A stretch of 64,000 nt of DNA, from NCBI RefSeq assembly GCF_001577365.1, contig NZ_CP014513.1, positions 2,480,001 to 2,544,000 of the forward strand, in the 5' to 3' direction. Under the pieces are notes generated by a model. The model was not told where the DNA came from. It ran no database searches and was given only the letters and a program-made list of their open reading frames with translations. This document shows positions 5,234 through 39,748 of the stretch, one piece after another (position 1 is the first letter of the stretch; each line of letters begins with the position of its first letter). Both the position numbers and the translations under genes were made by a program. Source of the stretch: Frondihabitans sp. PAMC 28766 (lineage in GTDB: Bacteria; Actinomycetota; Actinomycetes; Actinomycetales; Microbacteriaceae).

Positions 5234-6369
5234 CGACGTACCTGCTTGCCGGCGGCGGCACTGCCGGCCACGTGAATCCGCTTCTCGCCACGGCCGATCG
5301 GCTGCGGCGGCGCGAAGCCGATGCGACGATCCTGGTGCTCGGCACGGCCGAGGGCCTCGAGTCGCGCCTCGTGCCCGCTCGTGGTTACGAGCTGCTCACA
5401 GTGCCGCGTCTGCCCTTCCCTCGCCGTCTCAACGGCGCAGCCCTGCGGTTCCCGAAGCGCATCGTCTCGTCCATCGCGGGGGTTCGACGTCTGCTGCGCG
5501 AGCACCACGTCGACGTCGTCGTCGGGTTCGGCGGCTACGCGGCCGCCCCCGCCTACCTCGCAGCGTGGCGGTCGAAGGTGCCTATCGTCGTGCACGAGGC
5601 CAACGCCAAGCCCGGCATCGCGAACGTGCTCGGGTCGTACGTCACCACGCACGTCGGCGTGGTCTTCGCCTCGACGAAGCTGCGCCACTCGCGCCAGGTC
5701 GGCATGCCTCTCCGCGACGAGATCGAGACGCTCGACCGCCGTGCGACGCACTCCGAGGCGCAGCAGTACTTCGGGCTCGACCCCGCCAAGCCCACCGTGC
5801 TCGTCACCGGCGGCTCGACCGGGGCTCGGCGTCTCAACGACACGATCTCGCGCTCGGCCGAGGCGATCCTCGGCGCCGGGTGGCAGATCCTGCACATCAC
5901 CGGCGAGAAGTCCGATCTGACGTCGACCTCGCTCGCCGACTACCACCTGCTGAGGTACTGCGACCGGATGGACCTGGCACTGTCGGCCGCCGACTTCGTC
6001 GTCTCGCGCTCGGGCTCGGCGACGGTCAGCGAACTGACCGCCCTCGGCCTGCCCTCGATCCTGGTGCCGTACCCCGTCGGCAACGGCGAGCAGAGGTTCA
6101 ACGCCACTGACGTCGTCGCCGCCGGCGGAGCCGAGATCGTCGCCGACGAGCAGTTCACTCCGGCGTGGGTGCGCAAAGAGCTGGTGCCGACTCTGCTCGA
6201 TCGGGCCCGGATCGCCGACATGGCGGCGCGCGCCGCGTCCGTCGGCGTTCGCGACGGCGCCGATCGAATGGTCGACCTCGTGCTCGAGGCGACGCCGCGG
6301 TCAGCACAGAGCTCTGCGCCGGCGCCTCACGTTCCCCCCGCTGCTGCGACCCGATCGGAGGGGCGATGA
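5230..6369 (+). CDS. murG: MurG, lipid II-forming GlcNAc transferase
   Basis: Membrane-associated GT28 glycosyltransferase that adds GlcNAc to lipid I to make lipid II. It starts with GTG in a GTGA overlap with ftsW. It has 379 residues, with a non-conserved Ala/Pro-rich tail of about 25 residues. The N-terminal glycine-rich loop [12 protein letters not shown] (about residue 5), [11 protein letters not shown], the second glycine loop [11 protein letters not shown] and the donor-site [11 protein letters not shown] are all present. The stop overlaps the murC ATG as ATGA. Confidence 0.95.
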
Positions 6370-8876
6370 TCAAGCCCGACCTCGACCAACCCCTGCCCGA
6401 GACCATCGGCAGCGTCCACTTCGTCGGTGTCGGTGGCTCGGGCATGAGCGGCATCGCCCGCGTCTTCCTCGCCCAGGGGCACCGGGTGACCGGCTCCGAC
6501 TCGCGCGAGAGCGCCAACGTCCAGGCCCTCCGCGACCTCGGCGCGACGATCGCCGTCGGGCACGACGCCGCCAACGTCGGCGACGCCGACACGCTGGTCG
6601 TCACCGGTGCCCTCTGGCAGGACAACCCCGAATACCAGTACGCCCTCGCCCACGACATCCCGGTGCTGCACCGCTCGCAGGCGCTCGCCTGGCTGATCGG
6701 CGGCCACCGTCTCGTCTCGGTCGCCGGCGCCCACGGCAAGACGACGTCGACCGGCATGGTCATCACGGCGCTGCTCGAGGCCGGCCGCGACCCGAACTTC
6801 GTCAACGGCGGCGTGATCCAGTCGCTCGGCGTCAGCGCACGCGGCGGCGGCGACGACCTCTTCGTGATCGAGGCCGACGAGTCGGACGGCTCCTTCTTGC
6901 TCTACGACACCTCGATCGCCCTCATCACCAACGTCGACGCCGACCACCTCGATCACTACGGCTCGCGCGAGGCCTTCGACCAGGCGTTCGTCGAGTTCGC
7001 CTCGGCTGCGGCCGAGTTCGTCGTCATCTCGAGCGACGACACCGGGGCCGTCGAGGTCACGAAGTCGCTCGATGCCTCGCGAGTCGTCACGTTCGGCCGG
7101 GCGCAGGATGCCGACGTGAAGGTCTCCGACGTCACCTCCTCCGGCCCCGTCGCCTTCACGCTCTCGCACGAGGGCGTCGACCGGCGCGTGCAGCTCGCCG
7201 TGCCCGGGCACCACAACGCCCTCAACGCGGCCGGCGCCTACGCCGTGCTCGTCGGCGTCGGCCTCACCCCCGAGGAGGCGATCTCGGGGCTCGAGATCTT
7301 CGGCGGCACTCAGCGCCGCTTCGAACTGCACGGCACCGTGCGCGGCGTCAGCGTCTACGACGACTACGCGCACCACCCGACCGAGGTGCAGGCGGCCCTG
7401 CAGGCCGCGCGCTCGGTCGTCGGCGGCGGCCGTCTCATCGCCGTGCACCAGCCGCACCTCTACAGCCGCACGCAGATGATGGCGGGGGAGTTCGCCGACG
7501 CCTACGAGACCCTCGCCGACCACACGGTCGTGCTCGACGTCTACGGCGCGCGCGAAGACCCGGTGCCCGGTGTCACCGGGGCTCTCGTCTCCGAGCGCTT
7601 CCACGACGCGTCGAAGGTCGACTACGTGCCCGACTGGCAGGCGGCCGCCGACCGCGTCGCCGAGGTCGCCCGCGACGGCGACTTCGTGATCACCCTCGGC
7701 TGCGGCGACGTCTACCGCATCGTGCCGCAGCTGCTCGGCAGCCTCGAGCGCACCGAAGTCGCGGCCGCCGCGTCGCCGGGCGCGGGGAGTGACCGAGGCC
7801 CGATGAAGCGTCCCGAGGGGTTCGACCGGGTTCCGCCGCCGCGGCCGAAGGCGGAGGCGTCGCCCGAGTCGGCGACGGCCGAGCCGACACGTGCAGCGGC
7901 AGGAGACCAGGCGCAGGCGGAGCGCTCGAAGACCAGGGCCGCAACCAGCACCGCGACCAGCACCACGACCGCCACACGGCCCGCCGAGAAGGCGCGGCCG
8001 ACCGAGGCGCCGGGGCCGACACGTGAAGCCGAGCCCGCCGATCCTGCGTTCCTCCCCGCTCGTGACACGTCGAAGGCCGAGGCGCGCCAGCGCTCCGTCG
8101 CCGCGCGTCGCCTCGCGCGCCGAGCCCGCGCGGCCCGCCGCGCTGTCGAGCGCGCCGAGGTGCGCCGCTTCACCCGCCGCAGCCGACATCGGCGCGCCAC
8201 CTGGATCACGGCGGGCGCCGTCGCGGTCGTGCTCGTGGGGTCGGTCACGATCAGCGTCTTCTCGCCGCTGCTGTCGCTGCAGCACATCGACGTCGAGGGC
8301 ACGAGCCGGGTCGATCGCACCGCCGTGCTCAAGTCGCTCGACGGCCAGATCGGCAAGCCCCTCGCGACCGTCGACTTCACCACCGTCAAGCACGACCTGT
8401 CGAACTTCCCGCTGATCGAGTCGTACGTCACCGAGACCCGACCGCCCCACACCCTGGTGATCAGGATCACCGAGCGCGAGCCGATCGCGTCGGTGAAAGT
8501 CGGCACGACCTTCGAGCTCGTCGACCCGGCGGGCATCGTCATCTCGACGTCTCCGAAGCAGCCGGCCGGCGTGCCGCTGGTCGACATCAAGGGCGCGACG
8601 GTCGACGGCACCGTCTATCGGGCAGCGGCCGAGGTGCTGCTGTCGCTGCCGGCCCAGCTCCGGGCGACCGTGAAGACGGTCTCGGCATCGACTCCCAACG
8701 ACGTCACGCTGGGGCTCACGACGGGCGAACAGGTCGTCTGGGGCGGCGCCGACTCGTCGACGCAGAAGGCTCAGCTGCTGACCGGCCTGATCAAGAGCCA
8801 CAAGGCCACGAACCCGAACCAGTCGGTCGAGTACGACGTCTCGGCGCCCGACAACGGCATCATCCGCACCAAGTGA
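6366..8876 (+). CDS. murC: MurC ligase read in one frame with FtsQ (836 codons, no stop between)
   Basis: MurC adds L-Ala to UDP-MurNAc. The MurC part is residues 1 to about 470: [13 protein letters not shown] near 18, P-loop [11 protein letters not shown] near 122, and the C-terminal [10 protein letters not shown]. It ends at the typical [14 protein letters not shown]. The frame then continues without a stop through a Pro/Ala/Thr-rich linker into a full FtsQ. ATG 7803, in the same frame, would be the normal ftsQ start. Either this is a real fusion, topologically sensible because FtsQ begins in the cytoplasm, or one base is missing near 7770-7780. One added base would end murC at TGA 7790-7792, 10 nt before ATG 7803. 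The second reading fits other apparent base losses in this window. Confidence 0.9.
7803..8876 (+). CDS. ftsQ: FtsQ divisome protein (internal start within the murC frame)
   Basis: Bitopic division protein that links early and late divisome proteins. From ATG 7803 it has 357 residues. A cytoplasmic tail of about 130 residues is rich in Pro, Ala and Thr and then strongly basic ([13 protein letters not shown]). One membrane span follows near bases 8200-8265, then a POTRA domain beginning [16 protein letters not shown] and an FtsQ-type beta domain ending at IIRTK. Possible ribosome sites are GAGG at 7795 (4 nt spacing) and GGGGAG at 7784 (13 nt), neither ideal. The domain is certain; whether it is made separately or fused to MurC is not. 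Confidence 0.85.
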
Positions 8877-38230: not shown

Positions 38231-38923
38231 ATGGCCCAGACCGTAGGAATCCTGGTCGTCTCGCACAGCGCGAAGATCGCCGAAGGCACGCTCGAGCTCG
38301 CGAAGCAGATGGCCCCGACCGTCACGATCGTGGCCGCCGGCGGCACCGACGATGACGGGATCGGCACGAGCTTCGACCGCATCTCTCAAGGCATCACGCG
38401 GGCGCAGTCGGGCACGGGCGTCGTGATCCTGTGCGATCTCGGCTCGGCCATCCTGACCGCCGAGACCGCGGTCGACTTCCTCGACGACGCTGACAAAGCG
38501 CTCGTGGTCATCGCCGACGCGCCGGTCGTCGAGGGCACGGTCGCCGCGGCCGTCGCCTCCGAGACGGGTGGGAGCCTCGCCGACGTCGTCGCAGCTGCGC
38601 GCACCGCCACCGGCGTCGCCGACCCGCACGCCGACGAGCACACGCTCTCGCACGCGGACGTGTCAGGCGCCGTCGAACGCTCGGCCACGCTGGTCAATCC
38701 GTCGGGCCTCCACGCGCGCCCGGCCGCCGAGTTCGTCAAGCACGCCTCGACCTTCGACTCGACCGTGCAGATCAACGGCGTCGACGCGAAGAGCCTGTTG
38801 CGAATCATGGGGCTCGGGCTCGCTCAGAGCTCAACGGTCAGCATCGTCGCGACCGGGCCGGATGCGAACAAGGCCGTCGACGAGCTCGTCGGTCTCGTCG
38901 AGAGCGGTTTCGGCGAGATCTAG
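38231..38923 (+). CDS. dhaM: Phosphotransferase DhaM, EIIA-Dha domain fused to HPr
   Basis: Relays phosphate from the PTS to DhaL. ATG 38231 is chosen (230 residues) because GGAG lies 8 nt upstream; ATG 38225, overlapping the dhaL stop, is too close. The EIIA-like domain (about residues 1-130) has its active His in LVVSHSAKIAEG. The HPr domain (about 150-230) has NPSGLHARPAAEFVKHAS with the phosphorylated His. There is no enzyme I domain, unlike E. coli DhaM, so a separate enzyme I must supply it. Confidence 0.93.
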   Translation: MAQTVGILVVSHSAKIAEGTLELAKQMAPTVTIVAAGGTDDDGIGTSFDRISQGITRAQSGTGVVILCDLGSAILTAETAVDFLDDADKALVVIADAPVVEGTVAAAVASETGGSLADVVAAARTATGVADPHADEHTLSHADVSGAVERSATLVNPSGLHARPAAEFVKHASTFDSTVQINGVDAKSLLRIMGLGLAQSSTVSIVATGPDANKAVDELVGLVESGFGEI

Positions 38924-38983
38924 GAGGCTGGCCGCCGCTGGCGCAGCGGTGGCGTTCGTTCGCGAGGAAGTATTGTCCGCAAC

Positions 38984-39276
38984 GGAGGAGGAACCCTCGA
39001 CTTGCGCGCTTCGGGGAGGAAAGTCGGTTCCGGCGAGACGTGCGGGGAGGATGGCCCGGCACGGCTTCCTCGCCAATGCGCGGCACCCCGCGAACGGCCG
39101 CGGTTTCGGGAGGATCTCCACACGCGGGAGGAACTAGTCACGGCCGCGGAGGAAGGTCGGCCGAGACCGCCGGCTAGGGAGGAAAACCTAGCCTCGCCAC
39201 GCCGCGCGGAGGAGTGCAGGTCGCGATTTCCTCCCCGATAAAGTGCCTCCCGGGGCATCCTGTGCGGCAGGGAGGA
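38984..39276. repeat. Non-coding array of nine GGAGGA boxes with roughly 30-nt spacing
   Basis: The 411-bp gap between dhaM and the YchJ-like gene has no convincing ORF. GGAGGA begins at 38984, 39015, 39046, 39109, 39127, 39148, 39178, 39208 and 39271. Most boxes are preceded by one to three G. Steps are 31, 31, 63, 18, 21, 30, 30 and 63, so many fall on a 30-31 nt grid. One box in the other orientation (TCCTCC) is at 39229. The boxes look like Shine-Dalgarno sequences on the plus strand, or anti-Shine-Dalgarno on the minus, but no start codons follow at useful distance. Function unknown. Confidence 0.7.
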
Positions 39277-39334
39277 TTCTCGACCGCGAGGCGCGCTGAG
39301 CGGAAGATCAAGTGGCAGGGCAGCCCCGCGCGGG

Positions 39335-39748
39335 TCAGAGGGCGTCGACGTAGAGCCAGCGGCCCGAGCGCTTCGCGAAGCGGCTGGTCTCGCGCTGCTG
39401 CGCGGCAGAGCCGCCAGCGCGGTAGTGCGCCGCGAACTCGACCGTGCCGGTCGTGTCCAGCAGCCCGCCGCGGGTCGCCCCGAGGATCTCGAGGCGGAAC
39501 CACCTCACGGCCGGGTCGAGCTCGAGGCCGGCCGGCCGGGTCGCAGGATCCCACGTGGCCAGCAGGTACGCCGCGTCGCCCACCACGAACGCCGAGTAGC
39601 GCGATCTCATCAGCCGCGTAGCGGTGGGCGCCGTCTGCGACCCGCGGTGCAGCGGCCCGCAGCACGAGCCGTAGGTCTCGCCGCTCAGACACGGGCAGCG
39701 GTCTCCGTCGCCGATGGTGGGGAAGGAGCGCGAAGGAGCAGATGGCAT
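39335..39748 (-). CDS. YchJ-like (UPF0225) SEC-C motif protein
   Basis: Small protein of 137 residues from the minus-strand ATG at 39748. The N-terminal metal-binding motif CPCLSGETYGSCCGPLH is the SEC-C type. LMRSRYSAFVVGDAAYLLATW and the C-terminal SRFAKRSGRWLYVDAL segment match the YchJ family. The molecular role of the family is not established. A longer reading to 39883 has no supporting similarity. Confidence 0.85.
   Translation of the reverse strand: MPSAPSRSFPTIGDGDRCPCLSGETYGSCCGPLHRGSQTAPTATRLMRSRYSAFVVGDAAYLLATWDPATRPAGLELDPAVRWFRLEILGATRGGLLDTTGTVEFAAHYRAGGSAAQQRETSRFAKRSGRWLYVDAL

Follow-up and report, generated by a model that had tools for sequence, protein, structure and literature searches.

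The gap between dhaM and a ychJ-like gene in Frondihabitans sp. PAMC 28766 holds an array of GGGAGGA boxes that is one member of a chromosomal family. In the core unit of this family, four boxes are direct and a fifth is inverted, at distances of 21, 30/31, 30/31, and 21 bp; 36 such cores were found. Computational analysis revealed the family, its recurring geometry, the unlike spacers between the boxes, phasing at ~10.4 bp, and a bias in the orientation of the neighboring genes. With confidence a little short of even, we interpret the arrays as a dispersed family of DNA-level, multi-site, helically phased putative protein-binding arrays.

Results

The Array in the dhaM–ychJ Gap

The window, i.e., the whole 64,000-nucleotide stretch of DNA that was analyzed, contains an array in which GGAGGA hexamers start on the plus strand at 38984, 38987 (overlapping), 39015, 39046, 39109, 39127, 39148, 39178, 39208, and 39271. 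The initial annotation had counted nine such hexamers in 293 bp (38984–39276), a number said to exceed chance; the count was confirmed, and becomes ten when the overlapping copy is included. The expectation after dinucleotide shuffling was 49.4 per 64 kb for both strands, or 0.11 per 293 bp of one strand, and the Poisson probability of ten or more was 8.5e-17, before any correction for the place chosen. The window overall showed no enrichment (41 GGAGGA in total, 30 of them outside the array). The spacings between boxes had been given correctly, and the statement that the intervening sequence is not a simple tandem repeat held: a repeat search returned only short, partial matches between the stretches separating the boxes.

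Two boxes with one changed letter, GCGAGGA (38962) and TCCTCGC (39067), together with the single inverted GGAGGA at 39229, complete two five-box cores (Table 1). The single changes in B1 and B5 of core 1 match each other. Core 2 was also matched by a specific central pattern (G000:C1:2519178-2519234) and has an extra box upstream; a box 17–18 bp upstream of B1 recurs at loci L123, L128, L129, L130, and L136 of the same genome. A simple scan of positions 38700–39500 revealed neither a σ70 promoter nor a T-run terminator, and the gap contained no stem plus T-run.

Table 1. Positions of array features and flanking genes in the window, and of the GTACATATGGACGGAGAT arrays in the G006 genome.
Feature	Sequence	Position	Strand	Remarks
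dhaM, left flank		38231–38923	+	EIIA-man plus HPr domains; stop at 38923
Array-bearing gap		38924–39334	.	between convergent dhaM and ychJ-like gene
Core 1		38962–39073	+	spacing 21/31/31/21; one of 36 cores
Core 1, B1	GCGAGGA	38962–38968	+	
Core 1, B2	CGGAGGA	38983–38989	+	
Core 1, B3	GGGAGGA	39014–39020	+	
Core 1, B4	GGGAGGA	39045–39051	+	
Core 1, inverted B5	TCCTCGC	39067–39073		
Extra box B0		39108–39114	+	18 bp upstream of core 2
Core 2		39126–39235	+	spacing 21/30/30/21
Core 2, B1	GGGAGGA	39126–39132	+	
Core 2, B2	CGGAGGA	39147–39153	+	
Core 2, B3	GGGAGGA	39177–39183	+	
Core 2, B4	CGGAGGA	39207–39213	+	
Core 2, inverted B5	TCCTCCC	39229–39235		
Outlying box	GGGAGGA	39270–39276	+	past core 2
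YchJ-like protein gene, right flank		39335–39748	-	PF17775 plus SEC-C
Array in G006, L284	GTACATATGGACGGAGAT	5760–5946		
Array in G006, L288	GTACATATGGACGGAGAT	6885–7093		same as the array in L248

Recurrence in Frondihabitans

Seven genomes of the genus were compared: that of the window (G000) and six others (G001 to G006). A three-box pattern had 49 overlapping matches in G000, eight of which were simple GGA repeats, versus 12 for the reversed control. The GGGAGGA version of the pattern matched 29 times in G000 and 24 times in G001 (controls, 0 and 2), and had no match in the five other same-genus genomes in a search of 60 genomes. With this loose pattern, 11 more distant genomes among the 60 had one to three matches each; by eye, a number of these matches were simple repeats, and controls were of like size. 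An exact central pattern matched 11 times in G000, 15 times in G001, and once in G397 among 398 family genomes (two single control matches), while among 396 order genomes it matched G000 and produced three single matches elsewhere, with ten single control matches. The exact pattern missed G006, where B4 is changed, and absence of arrays elsewhere is therefore unproven by it. A laxer geometry scan recovered five cores in G000 (400 kb), two in G001 (400 kb), three in 280 kb of G006, all at a single tandem locus, and none in G002, G003, and G004 (200 kb each), in G005 (400 kb), or in 80 named actinobacterial loci (1.46 Mb). By these searches, most of the genus is devoid of arrays, which were found in three species. 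A tree of six species built on two genes, with G005 left out, paired G000 with G001 (support 0.84). The initial annotation had named lack of conservation in relatives, or a box frequency ordinary for intergenic regions, as evidence that would speak against the array; this check did not count against it, as G001 carries the same geometry, in some cases in matching gaps.

From 29 stretches fetched around arrays, 31 clusters with at least four exact boxes were obtained (17 in G000 and 14 in G001, 241 boxes); clusters with fewer exact boxes, such as both in L143, were excluded. Even-grid 400-kb samples contained five (G000) and three (G001) arrays of at least four boxes, which suggests tens of arrays in each of the two genomes. 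When 6-mers in these samples were ranked by short-range pair enrichment, GGGAGG came first in G000 (ratio 4.8) and GGAGGA came first in G001, narrowly (2.2, the next words being at 2.0). A second clustering scan, which used 7- and 9-mers and another measure, did not place the box first: in G000, CCCTCCC was sixth and CGGGAGGAA seventh, and in G001 the box was absent from the top seven. Relative to parS-like sites at 0.86 Mb in G000 and 3.09 Mb in G001, taken as the origin side, the arrays listed had no single chromosomal focus by eye. Twenty-one viral contigs had one exact match each, with 3 to 11 boxes within ~550 bp, the match itself counting three; a few of these may be true repeats.

Repeats of other kinds emerged from word scans of G002, G003, and G005, and none of those looked at had the five-box geometry. 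G005 contains ten inverted pairs AATCGAAGG (AAATCGAAGGGGAT / ATCCCCTTCGATTT) at 64–66 bp with unlike interiors in 400 kb sampled (examples at L221 18874, L226 11506, and L319 4663 and 14307), and some of the interiors look like putative nested hairpins. In G003, elements with GAGACTCCA / TGGAGTCTC at their borders occur both dispersed and in tandem (L303 18634, L304 6382, L311 11131-18542). A long near-perfect hairpin repeat around GCGACAAAACGCGACACCTGCGACG is present in G001 in seven copies per 400 kb sampled (e.g., L205 5896 and L210 2557). Arthrobacter sp. Hiyo8 has, at L063 18784-18883, a tandem 32-bp repeat that starts with GACGCTCGCTCAC and is followed by an inverted copy of the first word.

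Five-Box Geometry and Helical Period

Cores were fitted with distances of 20–22 and 29–33 bp allowed and the best fit retained; a box match within one mismatch was required at four or more places, and the clusters had been picked by GGAGGA. Of the 36 cores, G000 contributed 21 and G001 contributed 15; two of the 36 form a recent duplicate pair. The cores have a B1–B2 distance of 21 bp in 33 cases and a B4–B5 distance of 21 bp in 34, while B2–B3 is 30/31 bp in 34 and B3–B4 is 30/31 bp in all 36. All five boxes lie within one mismatch in 31/36 cores; two cores (L131 and L140) have no recognizable B1. The box consensus is GGGAGGA with weak flanks, about TTCGGGAGGAARTC. Conservation of the box is partly built in by the selection criterion; this is much less so for the distances and places.

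Same-strand box distances peaked at 18, 21, 30, 31, 51/52, 61/63, and 82 bp, and distances between inverted boxes at 12, 21, 51/52, 82, and 103 bp; the 12-bp inverted form was nearly confined to G001 (15/16 rows of a looser listing). A number of arrays have inward-facing boxes on either side. Among periods of 6 to 16 nt, 460 same-strand distances were best described by 10.4 bp (R 0.52). When distances of 20–22 and 29–33 were excluded, the best periods were 9.0 and 11.3, with R at 10.5 of 0.40, and the 18-bp distance is a non-whole number of helical turns. The core distances correspond to about 2, 3, 3, and 2 turns, which would place the boxes close to a single face of the helix. The helical period fits a DNA reading better than an RNA one. 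Of the roles that had been put forward at the outset, we favor a protein-binding array with a spacing of about three helical turns, given the 10.4-bp period and the 21- and 30/31-bp distances in 36 cores.

In one intergenic stretch of G006, the same core geometry is repeated in tandem, in three or more copies of ~152 bp with a degenerate B4. Another and longer box, GTACATATGGACGGAGAT, forms inward-facing arrays in the same genome, spaced by 29–41 bp with a 66-bp inverted center: after three direct copies (40, 40 or 29, 31 apart), an inverted copy lies 66 bp farther on, and the spacing is then 40 or 41 bp. Sampling of 14 stretches gave two such arrays; one of the stretches had been picked for holding the site. 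The array in that stretch adjoins the same gene as the GGGAGGA arrays L137 (G000) and L139 (G001). The G005 homologue of the gene beside L137 consists of two overlapping pieces, one with an internal TGA (L250/L251, 3634053-3634648), and may be broken, or the break may be an assembly error.

Gene Context

All 31 arrays are intergenic according to a simple gene caller: 16 lie between convergent genes, 13 between codirectional ones, and two between divergent ones (in a few arrays the nearest called gene is more than 1 kb away and the orientations are uncertain). Background gaps of 80–1500 bp from 800 kb of even-grid samples, with the arrays left in, comprised 44 convergent, 165 codirectional, and 77 divergent ones (n = 286). 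By Fisher's test, arrays are enriched in convergent gaps (P 1.4e-5) and depleted in divergent ones (P 0.009). By eye, they occur in either orientation relative to genes. The intergenic placing, convergent enrichment, and rarity in divergent gaps suggest a role at the ends of transcription.

Spacers, Matching Sites, and a Possible Mobile Origin

Spacer identity between cores was 0.361, the same as after column shuffling (0.361), and the best value, 0.51, was shuffle-like, apart from the duplicate pair (0.87). The top eight local matches of 72 long spacers, searched for captured DNA in G000/G001 sequence, scored 30–36 bits versus 28–32 bits in one shuffle, and a distant blastn search returned no plasmid or phage match to the window array.

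For several arrays of G000, an array exists at the corresponding place in G001. Both flanking genes are common to the two arrays for L135/L141 and L137/L139; for L125/L144 and L136/L140 one flank is common, and an extra gene lies on the other side in G000; a fifth pair, G000 3812737 and the second array of L141, was inferred from position only. In the four matching pairs compared, the cores run in the same direction, boxes agree at 124/140 positions, and spacers and flanks agree at 135/400. Non-matching core pairs had a box identity of 0.905 and a spacer identity of 0.346, and cores at matching sites were thus no more alike in sequence than non-matching ones. Synonymous four-fold sites of dhaM were 0.61 identical (125 sites; random, 0.42). 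With spacers at the random level, either the spacers are rewritten faster than four-fold sites or the arrays were gained separately. Because box conservation partly reflects how the cores were picked, and because matching sites do not have more similar boxes than other sites, the protein-binding interpretation is slightly weakened, and the case for a mobile origin is slightly raised.

A non-autonomous mobile, or REPIN-like, population, with boxes serving as recognition sites for a transposase or recombinase by which the units are copied or moved, and with arrays devoid of host function, is a serious alternative, if on the whole an unlikely one. The finding of arrays in only three species of one genus, the tandem copies in G006, and matching-gap arrays with no common spacer sequence are in its favor, and the bias to convergent gaps is also described for REP elements in excerpts of PMC1525189. 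The dhaM–ychJ gap is near-empty in five relatives: in G001, G002, G003, G005, and G006, a ychJ-like sequence (by eye) begins less than ~100 bp after dhaM, with no array, while G004 has a different sequence downstream of dhaM. G001 contains a 175-bp unit with a recent, 93% identical inverted copy 3.2 kb away; the similarity stops at inward-facing boxes on both sides, which would fit a mobile element as well. Against this alternative, no target-site duplication was seen by eye at that one copy, and the shuffle-like spacers outside the single duplicate pair give no sign of ongoing copying. The Y1 transposase (PF01797) was found in none of the seven genomes of the genus, and ten proteins beside or between the arrays at L149 and L141 included no match to a transposase family (one matched nothing).

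RNA-Level and Termination Readings

The array could instead act as RNA, either through GGA boxes that bind CsrA in the manner of a CsrB-like sponge or through anti-Shine-Dalgarno UCCUCC loops like those of ar14/cuckoo; we consider this improbable. CsrA (PF02599) scored over the Pfam cut-off in 7/7 Frondihabitans genomes, so that a sponge is possible in principle; no structural support for it was found. CsrA occurs in all seven species and arrays were found in three, in dozens of copies with unlike spacers. By eye, each box had seemed to sit in a hairpin loop, an impression that was not borne out by a box-in-loop test: 241 boxes with 18-nt arms showed no excess over cross-shuffled flanks (12 shuffles), with z values of +3.15 (less stable) on the GGAGGA strand and +0.69 on the other strand. 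The covariance check proposed in the initial annotation was carried out on 35 cores, and covariation did not rise above permutation, either with Watson-Crick pairs (best stack 3.44 versus permuted maxima of 3.16 ± 0.34) or with G-U pairs included (3.36 versus 2.92 ± 0.26, the highest permuted value being 3.63). B1–B5 complementarity was slightly above shuffles (P about 0.03), and folding of the whole gap in the window was slightly stable (z -1.46 and -1.35). An Rfam search of the window array gave sub-threshold matches only, among them a weak minus-strand match to ar14 (RF02344; E 0.03, 23.9 bits versus a gathering score of 58.8). The proposal that the array is an RNA displaying Shine-Dalgarno-like or anti-Shine-Dalgarno motifs is thus unsupported by the loop test, the covariation, the occurrence of arrays in either orientation, and the scan for promoters and terminators.

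The arrays could also be signals for transcription termination or 3'-end processing that are readable in both directions and work by their sequence, not through a complex bound to the DNA. Such signals would agree with the convergent-gap enrichment and the inward-facing boxes, and are likewise a poor prospect, since the window gap has no stem plus T-run, relatives with the same gene neighbors and no array show that a terminator of this kind is not required, and the fixed 21- and 30/31-bp spacing would be left unexplained.

Comparison with Known Systems

Searches of open-licence literature brought up nothing like the five-box unit. The closest kinds are spaced motif pairs (Tong 2017) and REP/BIME elements, and the arrays did not show the defining features of the latter. 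A feature of REP/BIME elements is the binding of gyrase, IHF, or Pol I. REPs are described in excerpts of PMC2817692 as palindromic repeats of 21–65 bases, one class of which is linked to Y1 tyrosine transposases. As far as these excerpts and those of PMC1525189 go, REP/BIME elements and the arrays have in common a dispersed, extragenic location, often in convergent gaps (for the arrays, 31/31 intergenic by the simple gene caller and 16/31 convergent), regular spacing, and occurrence in both orientations. In place of a palindromic unit, the arrays have only a short box, with shuffle-like spacers and covariation at the permutation level, and the Y1 transposase (RAYT), found in 0/7 genomes of the genus, was found in 5/14 in control rings.

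Tong et al. 2017 (PMC5217627, seen in excerpt) describe spaced motif pairs with a fixed distance and a free spacer, which are intergenic and in some cases near 3' ends or in convergent gaps. Fixed distances and dissimilar spacers are also what the Frondihabitans arrays show. Among the pairs in these excerpts is the inverted pair GGGACAG(N)15TGTCCC of Bifidobacterium animalis, present in 21 copies, most of which are nearer to a 3' end; its 15-nt gap equals the one between B4 and B5. The pairs in this source are reported, in the part seen, as pairs with other sequences, whereas the Frondihabitans unit has five boxes at ordered distances, sometimes with more than one core per gap.

Excerpts of PMC4679880 describe TAACTGA heptamers of Beggiatoaceae as direct repeats mostly upstream of start codons; like the arrays, they are sets of a short heptamer scattered over intergenic DNA and present in only some of the relatives, but the Frondihabitans boxes are 11–24 bp apart, rare in divergent gaps, and have an inverted member. 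SARP operators, in the excerpted account of PMC5930380, are bound cooperatively by monomers at promoter heptamers placed about once per turn, with 3–4 bp spacers. The likeness lies in the mode of working; the arrays differ in their spacing of ~2 and 3 turns and in their rarity in divergent gaps. Operators of the SARP or iteron type have a cognate regulator or initiator that binds the boxes.

Other systems are more distant. The RF02344 ar14 small RNAs, also named cuckoo, resemble the arrays in having CCUCC motifs repeated on one strand; the match in the window stays far below the gathering score, and hairpin display was not found. CsrB/C-type sponge RNAs occur where the organism has CsrA and display GGA motifs in hairpin loops; in Frondihabitans, the first holds and the loop display does not (z +3.15). 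CRISPR arrays have long direct repeats of ~25–40 bp and spacers matching foreign DNA, whereas the recurring box here is ~7–14 bp and the window array has no plasmid or phage match by distant blastn. As to the terminal inverted repeats and target-site duplication of MITEs, one copy ends at inward boxes and a duplication was unseen by eye.

Discussion

From the array data, we infer that the arrays would function through protein binding, with cooperativity and a barrier or anchor function. The boxes would be bound cooperatively by a putative multi-subunit protein indifferent to the spacers. Located where transcription ends, the complex may act as a barrier to converging RNA polymerases, or it may serve as an anchoring point in the topology of the DNA or the structure of the nucleoid.

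That the arrays constitute a previously undescribed chromosome element, a five-site nucleoprotein platform of 2-3-3-2 turns, dispersed in gaps at gene ends, whose geometry is kept while the spacers and perhaps, in other Frondihabitans species such as G006 with its GTACATATGGACGGAGAT arrays, the box itself turn over, is a doubtful possibility on present data. If real, such a platform would point to a co-evolving family of binding proteins that organizes or insulates gene ends. Should the boxes be held at exact helical distances amid changing spacers, it is the geometry that would be read out, which is the signature of a multi-subunit complex. Tens of sites per chromosome would then provide a new handle on the ends of transcription units and on supercoils between convergent genes, and the arrays would serve as a concrete model for spaced motif pairs without assigned function that have been reported near gene ends in other bacteria.
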